NCBI RefSeq assembly: GCF_024741135.1
Contig: NZ_JANSUY010000001.1
Span: forward strand, 682,001-746,000
Direction: 5' to 3'
Length of the DNA: 64,000 bases
From: Aquiflexum gelatinilyticum
Lineage (GTDB): Bacteria > Bacteroidota > Bacteroidia > Cytophagales > Cyclobacteriaceae
A program made the translations under genes and the position numbers. The notes under the pieces are model-generated. The model did no database searches and was not told where the DNA came from. It was given only the letters and a program-made list of their open reading frames with translations. How positions within the stretch are numbered: the stretch's first letter is position 1; each line of letters starts with the position of its first letter. Shown piece after piece: positions 188 to 7,525 of the stretch.

Positions 188-2613
188 GGGTTTATTGGTT
201 TTAAGTAGATTCGCTCCATTGCGTTTTTTTTGACTCTTTCATAGTCGAATGGTATGTTGACAAATTCGTCTGCCGCCCAAATAGGAAATAGATTTCTATA
301 AAATGGACTATTTGGATTCCCAGATTGTCCGGGAGTATTGATGCCAATGGTTTTTTCCCAATCGCCGGTATCGACTACAATCCTGAATGAAGCACCTGAA
401 GTATTTTTGTCTCCATAGGCATTTGCACCGGGGGTAAAACTGTAGCCTCCTCTCGCCACCGGACCTGCATCCAATTTTTCCTTCCATTCATCCGACAAGG
501 CCGGGCTCAAAGGATGAGTGATGTAGGCGTGTTTGTAGGAAGTCTGACCGTATTGCCAGTTGTTACTGTTTTTTCCAAGTTTTGACTCGAGTTCCTGAAT
601 TGCCAACTCAAAGCAATTTACGAGAAACTTATCCCTTTCAATAGCAGCATTCCTTGAAAATAAGTGGTCAGGATGCTCTATCCAACTTATCACACGGGTC
701 ATCTGTATACTGCCCACCAAATCCATCACCTCTTTGGGAACTGATATTTCCTTTATTTTTTCTCTGATTTTTCTTTCCCACATGACATAAATTCCTGCGG
801 GAATAGAGTTCTTTTCCAACTTATAATCCCAATCTAATAGCATACCCCTCAATTTCCCAGCTTCATTTTTCTCGAAAACAAGATCCTTTAAGTAGGGGAC
901 CAAGGTTCTTGCAGGAAGCGACAGGTAGTCATTTTGAAGCTTTCCCATTTCTTCAACAGAAAAATTGGTTCCTTTTCCGAGAACTTCTCTGACCCGGTCA
1001 CCGCGAAACGAGTCAGACCATTCATAACCTAGGGCATTTTTGTGTGGATAGTCCGCCGGAGTTACGTTTTCATTGGCGGTGGCTATAAAACCATTTTCAG
1101 GGTTATAATCATGTGGTCTCTCCGAAATGGGTAAGTAGCCGTCCCATTCCTTACTGCCATCTCCCAACGTCACAACCAGACCTGAAAAACCATTTCTGAT
1201 AGGTGAGATTCCTGTTGCCTGCCAACCGATATTCCCTTCCCTGTCTGCCCAAATCATATTTTCGGCGGGAATGTGGTTGTAAGTACAAGCATCCCGAAAC
1301 TCCTCCCAAGTAGTCGATTGGTCCATTCTCAGGCTTGCCAAATAGGGTGCGCCGCCCTTTTCAAGCCATGCACACTGTACTGCAACTGCTTTTTTCAGAT
1401 ACTGATCTACGAATGTCACCGGACCATGGATAGTATAGAAATGTTTCACAACAGCATCGGATTTCCCTTTTACTTTGATAGTGTCGGTAATTACTTCCAT
1501 CTCATGCCATTTTCCTTTATGGAAATATAGTTGCGGGTTTTCGGGATGAATGTCATAGATGCGCATGTCCTCGTTATCTGTTTCGAAAATCGTCAGACCC
1601 CAAGCTCCAAATTGGTTATGACCTATCGATACTCCGGGAATCACAGGTTCTCCGGCGCCCACCACATCCCAACCGGGCGCATGAAGGTGAACCATATACC
1701 TAAGAGAAGGAACTGCGATCAGTCTATGGGGGTCATTTGCCATGATGGGATAACCACTTTCAGTTAATTTGCCACTGACTACCCAATTGTTGCTTCCTAT
1801 GGAGAATTTCTCAGTCTCGAGGGTTTCCTGAATATCTGTTTCATATTCCAGTAATTGGGTCATGAATTTTTCGGGATTGTTTCGGGCTTCCGGGATGATG
1901 TATTCAGGATAATAGGTCAGGCTTTTGCGAAAAGCATTGTAGGGAGCAAGAATATCCTTGAACAGTAATTCCTTCGGGATAGACTTGTCAAGATCCAAAA
2001 TGGGTTCATTGGGGTGGAAATAGTGGATTTCTTTTGTTTTTTCAGCGCCGATTAGACTTACTATCCTGCTAAAATTCAGTTCATCCCTGACGTTTTCGAG
2101 CAGTCCTTGATGGCGGGAAATGACTACTTCCCAAGTCCATAATTCAGGCAAAATGCCCAAAAGCCTGAATTCGAAAGGAAGGTTTTCCGGCGATTGGAGG
2201 GCTTCTGCAATGTAGGCGTTGACTCCTTCCACAAAGGAATCAATGATCAATTCACCCCTTGGATGGTAATGGGCCAATTCGGATTTTTTATCTCCTCGAA
2301 ATTTGAAAAGCCTGACTCCTTTATCCCGATCCAATTCTTTTTCCCCGAAGATTTCTGCCATGGTTCCCGTGGCCTGCCTTCTCCAGATTTCAAATTGGAA
2401 TAAGCGGTACTTGGCAGCCATGTAGCCTTGGGTGAAAAAAAGGTCATGCTCGTTTTTGGCAAAAATATGGTTGATCCCGCTACTGTCCCGAAATACTTCG
2501 ACTTCCCCGTGCAGATTTTTTATGCTGAGTTGTTGTGAAAAAGAATTTTGGTTTATTACTATGAAGAGGAGAAGTATAAATAAGATGTTTGGTTGTTTTT
2601 GGAGTTTTCTCAT
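184..2613 (-). CDS. Penicillin acylase family protein (Ntn hydrolase)
   Basis: Secreted or periplasmic amidohydrolase of the penicillin/cephalosporin/AHL acylase family. These enzymes mature by cutting themselves so that a serine becomes the new N-terminus and nucleophile. The start chosen (ATG at 2613) gives a clean signal peptide (MRKLQKQPNILFILLLF...FSQ); the open frame extends another 38 codons upstream without a signal-like sequence. An alpha-chain region is followed by the SNNW motif with the predicted nucleophile at about Ser274, then a beta chain with typical family segments (GVSIGHNQFGAWGLTI, YTIHGPV). The length of about 809 residues fits the family. The natural substrate cannot be told from sequence; it could be an amide, a beta-lactam side chain or an acyl-homoserine lactone. 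It is coupled by ATGA to the following lipoprotein gene. Confidence 0.9.
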   Translation of the reverse strand: MRKLQKQPNILFILLLFIVINQNSFSQQLSIKNLHGEVEVFRDSSGINHIFAKNEHDLFFTQGYMAAKYRLFQFEIWRRQATGTMAEIFGEKELDRDKGVRLFKFRGDKKSELAHYHPRGELIIDSFVEGVNAYIAEALQSPENLPFEFRLLGILPELWTWEVVISRHQGLLENVRDELNFSRIVSLIGAEKTKEIHYFHPNEPILDLDKSIPKELLFKDILAPYNAFRKSLTYYPEYIIPEARNNPEKFMTQLLEYETDIQETLETEKFSIGSNNWVVSGKLTESGYPIMANDPHRLIAVPSLRYMVHLHAPGWDVVGAGEPVIPGVSIGHNQFGAWGLTIFETDNEDMRIYDIHPENPQLYFHKGKWHEMEVITDTIKVKGKSDAVVKHFYTIHGPVTFVDQYLKKAVAVQCAWLEKGGAPYLASLRMDQSTTWEEFRDACTYNHIPAENMIWADREGNIGWQATGISPIRNGFSGLVVTLGDGSKEWDGYLPISERPHDYNPENGFIATANENVTPADYPHKNALGYEWSDSFRGDRVREVLGKGTNFSVEEMGKLQNDYLSLPARTLVPYLKDLVFEKNEAGKLRGMLLDWDYKLEKNSIPAGIYVMWERKIREKIKEISVPKEVMDLVGSIQMTRVISWIEHPDHLFSRNAAIERDKFLVNCFELAIQELESKLGKNSNNWQYGQTSYKHAYITHPLSPALSDEWKEKLDAGPVARGGYSFTPGANAYGDKNTSGASFRIVVDTGDWEKTIGINTPGQSGNPNSPFYRNLFPIWAADEFVNIPFDYERVKKNAMERIYLKPINP

Positions 2614-2773
2614 TGTTCTTAATTTCTTGCCTGATACAAATAAATGGTCAGGGAGTTTTAATGTCATTTTTAAGTTCTGAAAATATTTTGAATCCAATAA
2701 GAAAATTGGATAAACGGTCGAAACCATTCATCTTTATTTTTCAAATTGCCACCATAACCAAAAACCTTCAACC

Positions 2774-3193
2774 ATGAGAAACTTAATGATTTTGGCTTTT
2801 TCGCTTCTGTTGTTTGCAGCTTGCCAAGCTCCCCAAAAAGAAGAGAAAATTATTGAAAAAGTAATCGAAAAAGAAATAGTGACTATGGACAAAGCACTGC
2901 GACATGTTGTTTTATTTAAGTTCAAAGATGGTACCGCTGAGGAGGATATTCAGAAAGTGGTAGATGCCTTCACCGCACTTCCATCAAAGATTGATGTCAT
3001 CAAGTCAATCGAATGGGGAACCAATAACAGTCCTGAAGGATTGGATCAAGGCTTTACGCATTGCTTTTTTCTAACTTTTGCCTCTGAAGCAGACAGAGAC
3101 ATTTACCTTCCACATCCTGACCATAAGGCTTTTGGTGCAGTATTGGGGCCACATTTGGACAAAGTATTGGTAGTGGATTATTGGACTAAATAG
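2774..3193 (+). CDS. Dabb-domain (stress-responsive alpha/beta barrel) lipoprotein
   Basis: A 139-residue protein starting with a lipoprotein signal (MRNLMILAFSLLLFAAC), a short charged linker (KEEKIIEKVIEKE), then a single Dabb domain. The domain begins at LRHVVLFKF and contains the typical HCFFLTFASEADRDIYLPHPDH segment. Dabb domains form dimeric ferredoxin-like barrels; a few are enzymes, but most have no assigned role. It is transcribed divergently from the penicillin-acylase gene and ends at a strong hairpin terminator. The family assignment is firm and the function is unknown. Confidence 0.85.
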   Translation: MRNLMILAFSLLLFAACQAPQKEEKIIEKVIEKEIVTMDKALRHVVLFKFKDGTAEEDIQKVVDAFTALPSKIDVIKSIEWGTNNSPEGLDQGFTHCFFLTFASEADRDIYLPHPDHKAFGAVLGPHLDKVLVVDYWTK

Positions 3194-3204
3194 TCAGAAT
3201 GTAG

Positions 3205-3247
3205 AAAAATAAAAACTCCAACAGGTTCATTTCTGTTGGAGTTTTTT
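3205..3247. terminator. Bidirectional terminator between convergent genes
   Basis: A perfect 11-bp stem (AACTCCAACAG at 3214-3224 with CTGTTGGAGTT at 3233-3243) has an 8-nt loop, a T run on the plus side and an A run on the minus side. It can end both the Dabb gene and the convergent gene at 3281. Confidence 0.85.
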
Positions 3248-3280
3248 ATTTGATTTTTTTGGAAAATTTAGATTCTCAGG

Positions 3281-3688
3281 TCAGTTTTTATTCATGGGCA
3301 ACTCGGTATTGACCTCGCCCCTTCCGCCTATTTCGATGATTTCATAGACTACAACTTCGCTTGCGCCTCTCCAAGGTAATGAATTGAGGTATTCCTTATA
3401 ACGCAATTCTACAAATTTTCCACCTGCACGCTCAAGCTGCTCAACAAGAGCTTCATTCTGAACACTGAATCTAAACTCGTTGCTTTGAAGGGCACCGGCA
3501 GTAGGACTTTGGAAACCTTCCTGAACGATACGGCCTTCCCAGGTTTTGAAGACGTATCCTTTTTTCTCAAAATAATTGAGCGTGCCGCCTTTGACACCTT
3601 CACTGAACACAAAGTAATACCTCCAATAGAATACTCCTGCAAGGATAATGATGAGGGCAAAAATGCCGATTTTTACGAATTTGTTCAT
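3281..3688 (-). CDS. Small single-pass membrane protein of unknown function
   Basis: A 135-residue protein with one N-terminal hydrophobic helix (about residues 6-23) followed by a soluble domain with the pattern FSEGVKGGTLNYFEKKGYVFKTWEGRI. I recognise this as a type of small conserved protein seen in Bacteroidota. Relatives are sometimes labelled 6-phosphogluconate dehydrogenase in databases, but nothing here resembles that enzyme: it is too short and has no nucleotide-binding motif. The C-terminal domain probably lies in the periplasm. No partner is evident; the gene stands alone between a shared terminator and the repeat-rich region. Confidence 0.75.
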   Translation of the reverse strand: MNKFVKIGIFALIIILAGVFYWRYYFVFSEGVKGGTLNYFEKKGYVFKTWEGRIVQEGFQSPTAGALQSNEFRFSVQNEALVEQLERAGGKFVELRYKEYLNSLPWRGASEVVVYEIIEIGGRGEVNTELPMNKN

Positions 3689-4163
3689 GTTGGTTGGTTT
3701 TTAGATGCTTTAAACAATTACAGAAATTGTGCAATTTAAACTATAAATCTGAAAACCAATTTCTCATAAATGCTTCAATTAAACAACAATTTGTTTTGGC
3801 ATTTATTTTTACATCATCCAAAGCCAAAAATCATTAATCCCTGAGCATAGAAAGGTGATCTCTAGGTGTAGACTCTGCCTATACCTTTTTATTTAGTAGA
3901 ATTTGCAATTCATTTTACCAAGAATTACCTTTCGTTTGCTTGGTTGGTAGATTAGTCCAATTGCAAATTGGTAGGGATAGAAGGGTTGAATTACAAATTC
4001 ATACCAGTCGCAGCATCAGGCATTAAACTACACCTAGTTGGGGTCGAAAGAATGATACTTAAATCTGGCCTAGACGAGCCCACTATATTCTTGATGCCCA
4101 AATAAAAAAAACTCAATTCTGGCGTCAAATTCGCGGTAGATCAATCTAAAAAGACTAAAGGTT
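3689..4163. other. Intergenic region, 475 bp
   Basis: No convincing gene in any frame. The right half (3864-4031) is the first copy of the structured repeat described separately. The left part is AT-rich and would hold the promoter of the minus-strand gene ending at 3281; I see no clear box there. Confidence 0.6.
3864..4031 (+). repeat. Structured intergenic repeat, copy A
   Basis: This copy has a hairpin (AGGTGTAG 3864-3871 with CTATACCT 3879-3886, followed by a T run), then an 88-nt block at 3899-3986 that is repeated without gaps at 5260-5347. Inside the block, AATTTGCAATT (3900-3910) is complementary to AATTGCAAATT (3959-3969). It ends with a third part (about 4003-4031, CCAGTCGCAGCATCAGG) that recurs in the other two copies. 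No coding potential is visible. Confidence 0.8.
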
Positions 4164-4418
4164 ATGAACAAGATAATTGGAATTATTATGTTAGTGGGAG
4201 TTTACTTTTTGGCTAAGGATGTTCTAAAAAAGGTCAAACCAGAAGATAAAAGAGAAGGTATAAAGATCGAAAAAATTAGAACTGCAGGAGGAACTATTAT
4301 GTTGGCATTTTTAGCGCTGCTGCACCTATTTACTAAAGAGCCCTTTTGCGAATATTACCCTTCTTTTTGTGATCGGTTTCCAGGCTTCTGTGAGAATTTT
4401 CCCTATTTGTGCCGATGA
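4164..4418 (+). CDS. Small membrane protein with a cysteine-heptad tail
   Basis: An 84-residue protein that I do not recognise. It has an N-terminal hydrophobic helix (about residues 3-18), a basic/charged stretch (KKVKPEDKREGIKIEK), a second hydrophobic helix (about 43-57), and a short tail. The tail holds four cysteines exactly seven residues apart, each in the context C[ED]x[YF]P (CEYYP, CDRFP, CENFP, then a final C). If two helices cross the membrane, N-terminus and tail lie on the same side. The gene sits between copies A and M of the structured repeat. Codon use and composition look coding, but short length leaves some doubt. Confidence 0.6.
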   Translation: MNKIIGIIMLVGVYFLAKDVLKKVKPEDKREGIKIEKIRTAGGTIMLAFLALLHLFTKEPFCEYYPSFCDRFPGFCENFPYLCR

Positions 4419-4421
4419 TTG

Positions 4422-4500
4422 TCCCATTCTGGGAGTAGAGTGGCTTAATCTCTAAGGGTAGGCAAATTCCATCCAGTCGAAGCATCAGAGGTTTGACTAC
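4422..4500 (+). repeat. Structured intergenic repeat, partial copy M
   Basis: It joins two parts of the repeat directly. The 5' part (4422-4460, CTGGGAGTAG...CTAAGGGTA) matches 5194-5231. The 3' part (4455-4500, AGGGTAGGCAAATTCCA...) matches 5404-5449 over 46 nt without gaps. The 88-nt central block present in copies A and B is missing here. Confidence 0.75.
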
Positions 4501-4564
4501 TTCAAGGGTGGGCAGGAAATCAAATAGCTGACGGAATATTTAATTATAGAGAAACCAACAAACG

Positions 4565-5173
4565 ATGAAATACACACTAATCATACTTTTGATTTTTCAT
4601 GTGAATGCGGCATTCTCTCAGAAGGTTTCCACCTTAGATGAAGCAACACAATTTTTTATTTCTCTGCTAATGTTGCATGAACTAAACCCGATTGAGACAT
4701 ATGAGTCTCAAAAAATTAATGAAATCCTGAAAAATTCAGCCAAACAATATTTAGAAAATGAAAGCGCAGTCAATGAAGAAAAAGAGAAGATTTTATTAAC
4801 TCTCTATGAGAACGGAAGGTCTGAATATGATGATTCAATTGATGAAAGAAGAATGAGAACAAGACGAGCAATATGCTTTATAGCACTGGCTTTCCAATCA
4901 GATCCATCTTGCAGGGATATTTTTGTTGAGTTTGCAAAATTTTCATTATCCTCATGCGATCAATTTTCCGAAGACAAATTGCTGGCAGAGGAGAAACTGG
5001 GAATACAATTGGTTGAATTGTTGTTTAAATTCGAGAACAATCAGCTTCAAAGACAGGATGTAACTCGTGTTGAAGAATTTCTAAGGGCAAACTCAACCAA
5101 CTTAGCTTCAGATGTGAAACATAGAACATCATTATTTTTGGAGTATTTTATAGACAATTTAAGTAGACATTAA
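4565..5173 (+). CDS. Secreted protein of unknown function
   Basis: A 202-residue protein with an N-terminal signal peptide (MKYTLIILLIFHVNAAFSQ, cleavage expected after Ser-Gln) and no further membrane helix. The mature part is acidic, rich in glutamate and predicted mostly helical, with three cysteines (in RRAICF, PSCRD and SSCDQ). I recognise no domain and no catalytic motif. The gene lies between copies M and B of the structured repeat and ends shortly before a hairpin followed by a T run at 5228-5250, its likely terminator. Together with the 84-residue gene it looks like an inserted or cassette-like accessory gene, but that is inference from position only. Confidence 0.6.
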   Translation: MKYTLIILLIFHVNAAFSQKVSTLDEATQFFISLLMLHELNPIETYESQKINEILKNSAKQYLENESAVNEEKEKILLTLYENGRSEYDDSIDERRMRTRRAICFIALAFQSDPSCRDIFVEFAKFSLSSCDQFSEDKLLAEEKLGIQLVELLFKFENNQLQRQDVTRVEEFLRANSTNLASDVKHRTSLFLEYFIDNLSRH

Positions 5174-5193
5174 TTCGCTTACCAGTTAGGGAA

Positions 5194-5449
5194 TCCCCAT
5201 CTGGGAGTAGGATGGCGTAACCGCTAAGGGTAGTTTGTAACTACCCTTTTCTATTATATGAATTTGTAATTCATTTTACCAAGAATTACCTTTCGCTATG
5301 GTGTTTGGTTGAATAGTCTAATTGCAAATTGGTAGGGATAGAAGGGTAGGACAAGGCGTTTGGAAATGATCCCTTAGGATCGTTTTAGCCTTGGGCCAGG
5401 TGCAGGGTAGGCAAATCCCACCCAGTCGCAGCATAAGACATTTGACTCC
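5194..5449 (+). repeat. Structured intergenic repeat, full copy B
   Basis: The most complete copy. It has the 5' part (5194-5231), a hairpin (GGGTAGT 5228-5234 with ACTACCC 5240-5246) plus T run, the 88-nt block 5260-5347, a linker, and the 3' part 5404-5449. Within the 88-nt block AATTTGTAATT (5261-5271) pairs with AATTGCAAATT (5320-5330) if one G-U pair is allowed. The linker folds too: CAAGGC 5352-5357 pairs with GCCTTG 5388-5393, enclosing AAATGATCC 5364-5372 paired with GGATCGTTT 5377-5385. Confidence 0.8.
5228..5250 (+). terminator. Hairpin plus T run after the 202-residue gene
   Basis: A 7-bp stem GGGTAGT/ACTACCC with a 5-nt loop and TTTT. It could terminate the 4565-5173 gene but is also an integral part of repeat copy B; copy A has a diverged hairpin in the same place. 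Confidence 0.5.
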
Positions 5450-5513
5450 GTCAAGGATTTGGTTATCAATCGATGATTTTTTTGGGCTTGACTCAACTTT
5501 GTGCAGCATATTT

Positions 5514-6617
5514 TTAATCGACCACCCAAAGCCAATCTTTATAACCTTCTTTTTCCATGTCCTTTTTTGGGATGAATTTCATGGCGGCTGAATTCATGCA
5601 ATACCGAAGTTTGGTAGGTTCGGGTCCGTCATTGAATACGTGCCCAAGATGGGAATCACCGAGTTTGCTCCTCACTTCCACACGCATCATTCCGTAAGCG
5701 GTATCGGTCGGTTTGCCGATGACGCGGGCATCGATCGGTTTGGTGAAACTCGGCCAACCTGAAAAGGACTCATATTTATCCGAAGAACTGAACAAAGGAA
5801 CTCCCGAAACAATGCAGACATAGATTCCTTCTTCTTTGTTTTCATTGTAATCGTTGGTAAAAGCCCGCTCAGTTTCTTCGTGCATGGTGACTTGGTATTG
5901 AAGTTCTGTGAGTCTTTTTTTCAGTTCTGAATCAGAAGGTTTTTTGTATTTGTCTTCCAATTTTACTGGCCAATGTTTTGCAATAAATGCATCCCTTCCC
6001 GAACCTGTTCTGTAAGCATAATACTCGGTCGGATTCTTCTTATAATAATCCTGATGGTAATCTTCCGCCGGATAAAAGTTAGTAAACTTGATCAAAGGAG
6101 TTACGATGGGTTTGTCAAATTTACCTGATTGGGAAAGCTTTTGAAGGGAAGCTTCTGCAGCCGCTTTTTGAATTTTGTCATGGTAAAATACTGCAGAAGT
6201 ATATTGAAATCCCCTGTCATAAAAGGAACCGCCCTCGTCCGTAGGGTCAAATTGCTGCCAGAAAATTTCCAATATCTCCGAATAACTGATGATATCAGGG
6301 TTAAATGTGACTTGTACAGATTCTCTGTGGGTTGTTTTTCCTCCTGATACATCCGAATAGGTTGGGTTTTTTTCTTTGCCACCGGCATAGCCGGAAACCA
6401 CAGATACAATACCGTCAACTCCCTCAAAAGGAGCTTCTATACACCAAAAGCATCCACCCGCAAAAGTGGCCAAAGCTGTTGGTCCATCATAAATTTCTTC
6501 AGGAGCATCGGAATTTTCACTTTTTTGTTTTCCATTTTCTGCCTGTGAGCAGGAAAACACCAAAAGACTGAAAGTAGGTATTAATACCAGATAAAGGATT
6601 TTTTTTGAAAAGGCCAT
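5514..6617 (-). CDS. msrAB: MsrA-MsrB fusion peptide-methionine sulfoxide reductase, lipoprotein
   Basis: Repairs oxidised methionine in proteins outside the cytoplasm: the MsrA half reduces the S form and the MsrB half the R form. The start chosen at ATG 6617 gives a lipoprotein signal ([23 protein letters not shown]); a 14-codon upstream extension has no purpose. The MsrA domain carries the catalytic motif GGCFWCIE, and the MsrB domain has [15 protein letters not shown] and the catalytic-cysteine motif RYCMNSAA. The first zinc-site pair of MsrB is degenerate (CIVS rather than CxxC), so this is a zinc-free type. The lipid anchor would place it in the outer or inner membrane facing the periplasm. 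Confidence 0.95.
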
Positions 6618-6896
6618 GATCTTATTGACTGTTTTGACTATTGAATTTGAATGGGGCATGATTTTAGATAATTGGCATACTTGGGATTCGGTTGCTGTCT
6701 ATGAAGGCAATTGAATGACGGACATCTTATTGACATTCAAATTATACAAGAATCCGGAAGATATACGTTTACTAACAGCAAATCAGATGAATGTGTTTGC
6801 AAAGATTAACAATTGCTCAAAAAAGATTTGTCAGATATGCGTCAACCATGACATCATTTGCTGAAAATATATTTCAATTCACATAAACCAACTATT

Positions 6897-7475
6897 ATGA
6901 AAACTACATTGAAAACCAGCGTACTCATGTTTGTCCTGATGGTATTTTTCCATTCAGGGTATTCTCAAACCGGTGGAGGGTTTGGAATCAAAGGAGGATT
7001 AAATTACAATTCAAACGGACAGTATTTTAAGGATGCTGAGGCGATTTGGGGATCTCCAAAAAATAACCTTGGTTACCATTTGGGATTATTCGGGAAGGTA
7101 AATGCAGGACCTGTTTTTCTCAGACCGGAACTCAATTATACCAATTTAAAATCAGAAATCAATTCGGTCCAATTGCAAACCCAACGACTTGATGCTCCGG
7201 TTTTGGTAGGAATCAATCTTCTCGGGCCTCTGGTTTCGGTATTTGCAGGACCATCTTTCCATTACTACATAGAAGACGAATTGCGGGACTTCGAATTTGA
7301 CAAATTCAATGCAGGGTATCAATTTGGAATCGGACTCAATCTTGGGAATGTCGGATTGGATCTCAGGTATGAGAGAGTGCTCAACGGGCAAACCGTAAAC
7401 ATTGATAATGTCTTTACAGGAGATGGTGATTTCAGATACCAACAATTGATGCTCGGCCTATCATTTAAATTTTAA
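6897..7475 (+). CDS. Outer-membrane beta-barrel protein (porin-like)
   Basis: A 192-residue protein with a signal peptide (MKTTLKTSVLMF...GYSQ) followed by alternating hydrophobic/polar strands typical of a small eight-stranded barrel (GGGFGIKGGLNYN, GYHLGLFGKV, FLRPELNYT, VFAGPSF, GYQFGIGLNLG, GLDLRYE). It ends in phenylalanine after LGLSFKF, the usual outer-membrane insertion signature. Its size and pattern fit the PorT/OmpA-like beta-barrel family common in Bacteroidota. The ATG at 6897 is preferred to one 39 bases upstream because it gives a proper signal peptide. A hairpin terminator follows; the gene stands alone. Confidence 0.85.
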   Translation: MKTTLKTSVLMFVLMVFFHSGYSQTGGGFGIKGGLNYNSNGQYFKDAEAIWGSPKNNLGYHLGLFGKVNAGPVFLRPELNYTNLKSEINSVQLQTQRLDAPVLVGINLLGPLVSVFAGPSFHYYIEDELRDFEFDKFNAGYQFGIGLNLGNVGLDLRYERVLNGQTVNIDNVFTGDGDFRYQQLMLGLSFKF

Positions 7476-7497
7476 TTACTCCAAAATCCATTTGTTA

Positions 7498-7525
7498 AAT
7501 CCCCTAGCCTCTAGGGGATTTTTTT
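7498..7525 (+). terminator. Rho-independent terminator after the barrel protein
   Basis: A 10-bp perfect stem AATCCCCTAG (7498-7507) and CTAGGGGATT (7511-7520) with a 3-nt loop, then a T run. Confidence 0.9.

Follow-up and report, generated by a model that had tools for sequence, protein, structure and literature searches.

Hairpin repeat units around two orphan genes of Aquiflexum gelatinilyticum: likely gene-less RAYT elements with a probable part in cassette-like gene turnover

The window, a 64,000-nt stretch of the Aquiflexum gelatinilyticum genome, contains a repeat region bounded by two minus-strand genes, a 135-aa gene on its left (3281-3688) and msrAB on its right (5514-6659). They flank three repeat units together with two genes on the plus strand, one of 84 aa (4164..4418) and one of 202 aa (4565..5173). 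This layout, with a shortened middle unit, agreed with what a sequence-only reading of the window had described. The same reading had pointed out an 88-nt block with near-identical ends and a divergent centre, which was reproduced to the single base: 3899-3986 and 5260-5347 align without gaps and differ at 1 of the first 36 positions, at 9 of the middle 24, and at none of the last 28. These units formed the largest repeat family within 2500-7500 (103 nt, 84%), far above chance. The unit coordinates given earlier were roughly right, but comparison with the tip profile described below placed the true ends slightly outside them, at about 3838-4043, 4422-4513, and 5195-5462.

All three units lie on the plus strand. 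Unit 1 (3838..4043, ends from the tip profile) is a full non-autonomous element, whose left arm (3843-3935, E 4.7e-16) and right arm (3959-4041, E 7.1e-16) were both recovered when the arm profile was run over the entire 64-kb window. Unit 2 (4422..4513) consists of a left tip and the final part of a right arm, fused at GGGTAG, and only its right part passed the arm profile. The word GGGTAG occurs three times in unit 3, which together with this junction suggests that unit 2 arose by deletion between short repeats. Unit 3 (5195..5462) has a full left arm (5202-5296, E 1e-22) and a degraded right arm, of which two pieces (5320-5347 and 5409-5455) gave weak profile matches. Its hairpin H4 carries an inserted hairpin module at 5350..5409 on the plus strand (AAATGATCC...GGATCRTTT), recognized from the sequence. 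In other genomes this module, AAATGATCC...GGATCATTT, also stands alone (loci L038, L040, and L041; we refer to loci, genomes, and contigs by L, G, and C numbers, G000 being the genome of the window), and the L040 copy lies near Rhs core sequence.

Tips were derived from 68 left and 91 right ends. They read CCCCnnCTGGGtGTAG and CTACACCcAGnnGGGG, and the information content was about zero outside them. A full unit is therefore a discrete element, CCCCnnCTGGGtGTAG...CTACACCcAGnnGGGG, made of two inverted arms, each about 90-100 nt long and containing two hairpins; the word GTAG lies within the tip, apart from the hairpins. Profile HMMs of both ends found 167 arms (94 left and 73 right) in a first set of loci, from which L033, L036, L037, L047, and L055 had been dropped as duplicates of longer loci and in which arms were present in 59 of the 68 retained loci, and 334 arms in a larger set. 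The model of the other arm also recognized 120 of the 167 arms on the opposite strand and a single one on the same strand; left and right arms are thus inverted copies of each other. Pairing of each full left end with the nearest right end gave 29 elements: 21 of 196-327 nt, five of 423-1092 nt, and three that contained a RAYT gene and measured 746-751 nt. Y1 enzymes are expected to leave no target duplication, and none was detected in the 29 elements when the two ends were offset independently; the true ends gave one 3-base match and none longer. A search for a clean empty site yielded none: a flank at L163 is common to five genomes, and at the filled site in G001 about 117 nt of flank are duplicated.

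The arms are connected to a transposase. At L039 (Mongoliibacter; the same locus as L175), a left arm directly precedes and a right arm directly follows an ORF that matched the NCBIfam model REP_Tyr_transpos (REP-associated tyrosine transposase) with 94 bits at a cut-off of 80. Contigs of GTDB were scanned for relatives of this RAYT, and the best 80 of 107 loci were divided into close RAYTs (at least 66% identity, 44 loci, from genera that we take to be Cyclobacteriaceae) and distant RAYTs (below 66%, 36 loci), with counts limited to loci with enough flank. Among these 80, close RAYTs had an arm upstream in 29 of 41 cases, downstream in 35 of 43, and on both sides in 24 of 40, whereas distant RAYTs had one upstream in 0 of 33, downstream in 1 of 35, and on both sides in 0 of 32 (Fisher p ~3e-11 upstream, ~3e-13 downstream). 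Close RAYTs without a detected arm (12 of 41 upstream, 8 of 43 downstream, 4 of 44 on both sides) were counted against a RAYT origin of the units. These results showed that the arms enclose the gene of a RAYT, a REP-associated Y1/HUH transposase, in many Cyclobacteriaceae, forming an element of about 750 nt. As in other RAYT-associated repeats, the arms flank a Y1 RAYT gene in relatives and their copies are dispersed as inverted pairs. At L324 (7494-8022), the initial portion of a RAYT gene passes into a C-terminal phage-integrase fragment (Phage_integrase), and one RAYT gene copy (L132) contains the palindrome CCCCGATAGCTATCGGGG.

Because the same arms enclose RAYT genes in other Cyclobacteriaceae, we read the units of the window as non-autonomous members of the RAYT element family that have lost the transposase gene, a reading that is well supported. 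The divergent 24-nt centre of the block is the position at which longer relatives carry the transposase gene. The short elements likely arose by internal deletion of RAYT elements: their centre is similar to the stretch that precedes the RAYT gene in L186 and L178 and to the one that follows it in L181, and other comparisons between the short-element centre and the edges of the RAYT gene were not clearly above shuffles. Counted against this reading, the cognate RAYT had no match in the own genome, in which the two Y1_Tnp matches are of other kinds. The suggestion of a small mobile element, made from the window sequence, gained support from these data. A non-exhaustive look met no sign that the units are remnants of a known protein gene. 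Derivation from Rhs genes was considered and rejected: although some unit loci contain parts of the Rhs core, the units have element ends of their own.

Structure was analyzed in an alignment of 26 hand-picked, fairly complete units and in one of 29 left arms. In the 26 units, changes on both sides were found at 15 pairs and in 52 cells, against 10.5 pairs and 21.1 ± 3.4 cells in shuffles and 7-10 pairs and 8-14 cells in slid controls; a measure of further pair types did not exceed that in shuffles (70/500). In unit 1, the hairpins lie on the plus strand at 3864..3886 (H1, AGGTGTAG...CTATACCT), 3899..3911 (H2, GAATTTGCAATTC), 3957..3971 (H3, CCAATTGCAAATTGG), and 3983..4005 (H4). Covariation was seen in H1 (helices 2 and 3 of the count), in H4 (four pairs, helices 7 and 8), at one pair of H3, and at four pairs of the tips, while H2 was paired in 96-100% of cells with no change on both sides. 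The helix joining tip to tip was paired in 74% of cells. The earlier proposal of a selected structure, with covariation expected across homologs, thus holds for the local hairpins. It does not hold for the example given with it, a G-U change that keeps the block ends paired: pairing of AATTTGCAATT with AATTGCAAATT showed zero double changes in 280 cells of the 26 units, so that it was rejected as a selected helix, both sequences being inner hairpins of the two inverted arms. As single-stranded DNA, each full unit folded better than any of 200 shuffles (z -3.0 and -4.0). The loops of some unit hairpins (L022, L026, L100, L104) contain short palindromes, for example ATCCCGACAATTGTCGGGAT.

Compensatory changes in hairpins are also what a structured RNA between co-transcribed genes, such as a terminator, processing site, or regulator, would leave, and genes on the strand of the units often stop shortly before one (median 37 nt), which means that many units may be transcribed. 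An Rfam scan of 2500-7000 at a loose threshold, on the other hand, gave five matches, all sub-threshold, of which the sole one on a unit was DapZ (5192-5256, 27.9 bits where 56 are needed), and an RNA element accounts poorly for transposon-like ends and the association with RAYT. We regard such an RNA as a very unlikely explanation of the units, though a secondary RNA effect is possible. Since the arms accompany a Y1/HUH transposase, single-stranded DNA is the likelier substrate.

A search for copies of the block in the own genome and in relatives had been proposed, and both contained them. BLAST with unit 3 as the query hit the own genome at 22 places (E ≤ 0.001), including four within the window. 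Across 59 genomes, the own one among them, at least 11 had matches when up to 13 candidates were scored per genome, five from the genus and six from elsewhere in the family; the matches listed for G022 and G026 are confined to the middle-to-late portion of the query, which contains the inserted hairpin module. The left arm was also searched as a covariance model, with up to 33 candidates scored per genome; it matched at least 24 of 118 genomes of the family and at least 18 of 84 genera, at least 27 times in the own genome, at least 26 times in G004, and at least 31 times in G030. L322 (G133:C11:61500-66500) has seven tandem units at 2046-3169 with a period of about 160 nt and no intervening gene. 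At L094:6121-6546 (G002:C31), a single left arm precedes three right arms repeated every 113 nt, and sequence at the junctions is reminiscent, by eye, of the end of a RAYT gene. Two contigs of the own genome, C8 and C18, stop about 1.2 kb or less from a unit, as would be expected if the assembly broke at repeats. All five genomes of the genus (G000-G004) also carry another abundant family of repeats, about 200 nt long (GCCCCGAAGTGGGC...GTGCAAGGTGCTT...GCCGGCCCGG) and frequently arranged in tandem, at L163:2240-3200, L155:2488-2692, and many other sites.

The orientation of neighbouring units and of the genes between them was compared. In the first set, arms 180-1500 nt apart were co-oriented in 43 of 44 cases. 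Genes between units lay on the strand of the units in 27 of 37 cases, against 51 of 117 for outside neighbours (p 0.0015); the count followed a longest-ORF rule, took genes with the same first 60 bases once, and included homologous loci of different genomes. The ten genes on the opposite strand were counted against a cassette reading. A second set, mostly from other genera, gave co-orientation in 15 of 19 cases and 7 of 9 genes on the strand of the units, one of the nine being a RAYT gene itself. Strand-biased insertion might be the cause of co-orientation; local GC skew agreed with unit orientation in 13 of 20 regions.

Orderly orientation bears on the idea that RAYT mini-elements are plainly scattered in tolerant intergenic or island DNA, where genes come to lie between them incidentally and turn over in the ordinary way. 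Many units without any gene between them and the tandem units in G133 fit such scatter, and the locus of the window is variable in any case, as the gene found there in G003 (below) illustrates. The co-orientation and strand agreement of the first set speak against it, as does the company kept by the 84-aa gene (below), and we judge it somewhat unlikely. The gene-site-gene layout in a single orientation also recalls integron attC sites served by a tyrosine recombinase. The attC boxes are RYYYAAC/GTTRRRY, which the tips do not fit. Moreover, the arms accompany RAYT and not an integrase; in a non-systematic look at the loci, an integrase fragment was seen at one (L324). We therefore hold attC sites to be extremely unlikely.

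Products of the genes between units are diverse. Among 30 such proteins scanned, four were above the Pfam cut-off (DUF808, CHAP, DUF6984, and a pyridoxal decarboxylase), and further ones were a HicA toxin (L160), a DUF433/DUF5615 pair (L096), and a ParE toxin (L102). Rhs core ends followed by a small gene were found in L024 and L094, and Lamassu-like LmuABC genes adjoin units in L028. When 24 Rhs-core matches in 8 genomes were merged by hand into 11 groups, a unit lay within about 1.5 kb of 6; a binomial test of this count would be unfair, most of the genomes having been picked once Rhs was known to adjoin units. At L319, L325, and L332 (G069, G110, G122), units stand within or next to long arrays made up of Rhs core ends, C termini of toxin type, and the small genes that follow, and two of these C termini match Peptidase_M91.

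For the two orphan genes of the window, Pfam, NCBIfam, and PADLOC gave nothing above cut-off, and structure predictions were poor (low-confidence models with pLDDT 62 for the 84-aa and 58 for the 202-aa protein); the 84-aa model has two predicted helices and a Cys-rich tail. The 84-aa gene is, as judged from its substitution pattern, under purifying selection, with dN/dS of 0.11-0.25 in five of six pairs and saturation in the sixth. It was found in 4 of 245 genomes of the family, at three different loci, and in all four it lies beside units and follows one. G000 and G001 carry it at the locus of the window, G004 carries it on another contig before a gene of the phosphorylase superfamily, and in G030 it stands between a histidine kinase gene and a helicase gene. 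The 84-aa gene thus appears to have changed its place in the genome together with units. It was the sole such case: among the 245 genomes, the 202-aa gene was present in G000 and, with one stop, in G004, and was not shown at non-orthologous loci.

A check for different genes between units in related strains had been proposed, and these were found in congeners at the locus of the window. There, G000 shares the 84-aa gene with G001 and the 202-aa gene, broken in G004, with G004; G001 and G004 each have one further gene, mutually unrelated; and G003 has a 2OG-Fe(II) oxygenase gene between the same flanks with no detected arm. The cassette exchange proposed earlier is supported by the presence of one gene beside units at three loci and by the varying gene content at this locus; its mechanism is putative. 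Cassette-like movement of genes with units is likely on the strength of this one gene and of the layout.

How the genes would move is a separate matter. The units may be dispersed stretches of homology, so that genes move by homologous recombination on incoming DNA while RAYT merely spreads the units. Homology between the 84-aa cassettes of G000 and G004 starts inside a unit and ends at the tip of the next, as such exchange would produce, the direct orientation of units suits it, and it can do without a cognate RAYT in the own genome. It is harder to reconcile with pairs of units that are often merely 70-85% alike, which is low for efficient homologous recombination. We rate this explanation as possible, at rather less than even chances.

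The reading that we prefer, and consider probable, is that the units are hairpin elements of the RAYT family that have lost their gene and act as portable ends or homology for the cassette-like gain, loss, and exchange of genes. The units of the window would be derivatives of RAYT elements that became non-autonomous on loss of the gene. A RAYT supplied elsewhere in the lineage would recognize the hairpin arms on single-stranded DNA, nick at the tips, and then move or copy the unit without target duplication. Co-oriented units could serve as portable ends or homology stretches for segments of a unit plus a gene, and these segments may be gained, lost, and exchanged like cassettes. Some passengers would be toxin-antitoxin genes or C-terminal pieces of Rhs proteins with a possible immunity gene. 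A stronger version, in which RAYT drives an integron-like cassette system, seems unlikely to us: cuts at successive co-oriented tips would release a single-stranded unit-plus-gene segment for joining to another unit at its tip, and arrays of orphan, toxin-antitoxin, and possible immunity genes would grow with no tyrosine recombinase involved.

Passages of two papers describe the nearest known kinds, TIRYT elements (PMC3733652) and the Bacteroidetes TnpA_Y1 subclass 2.6 (PMC6006769). In TIRYT elements, or TIRtrons, RAYT-like genes lie between long terminal inverted repeats (PMC3733652). As here, the inverted repeats that enclose the Y1 transposase gene are long, can pair in part with themselves, and also make up dispersed families (PMC3733652). 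The arms studied here differ in having two hairpins and CCCC/GGGG tips, and gene-less copies frame small genes; GGGGWSAS, which that paper gives for some TIRs only (PMC3733652), is absent, the tip being CCCCnnCTGGGtGTAG. Subclass 2.6 is likewise described, in passages of PMC6006769, from Bacteroidota, with genes flanked by atypical secondary structures that are copied elsewhere in the genome. By eye, and for one sequence, L039 has NHVH, in agreement with the NH[LIV]H given there for the subclass, but YIHENP instead of YIH[QN]NP and W followed by T instead of WQ (PMC6006769). REPINs and BIMEs of RAYTs are similar as non-autonomous, RAYT-linked pairs of inverted hairpin repeats, but here each arm carries two hairpins in about 90-100 nt, and a version that encloses the RAYT exists. 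Classical REPs are hairpins of 20-40 bp with a GTAG foot, unlike these two-hairpin arms, in which GTAG lies away from the hairpins. The rAID arrays of Bacteroidales, defined in passages of PMC12247911 by a tyrosine recombinase and orphan immunity genes, share co-oriented short orphan genes and conserved intergenic sequences with our loci, which differ in having RAYT elements, in belonging to Cytophagales, and in that an immunity role of the genes is putative (PMC12247911). In the open-licence literature, we found no publication on these arm and tip sequences with the framing of orphan genes.

RAYTs are usually viewed as domesticated enzymes that spread small hairpins without moving genes (the REPtron view, in passages of PMC6006769). 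Gene-less RAYT elements that frame orphan genes make a role of Y1 enzymes in the gain and exchange of genes testable, whether direct or through the homology that they spread. The units also mark sites of uncharacterized membrane, toxin-antitoxin, and Rhs-derived genes in Cyclobacteriaceae.
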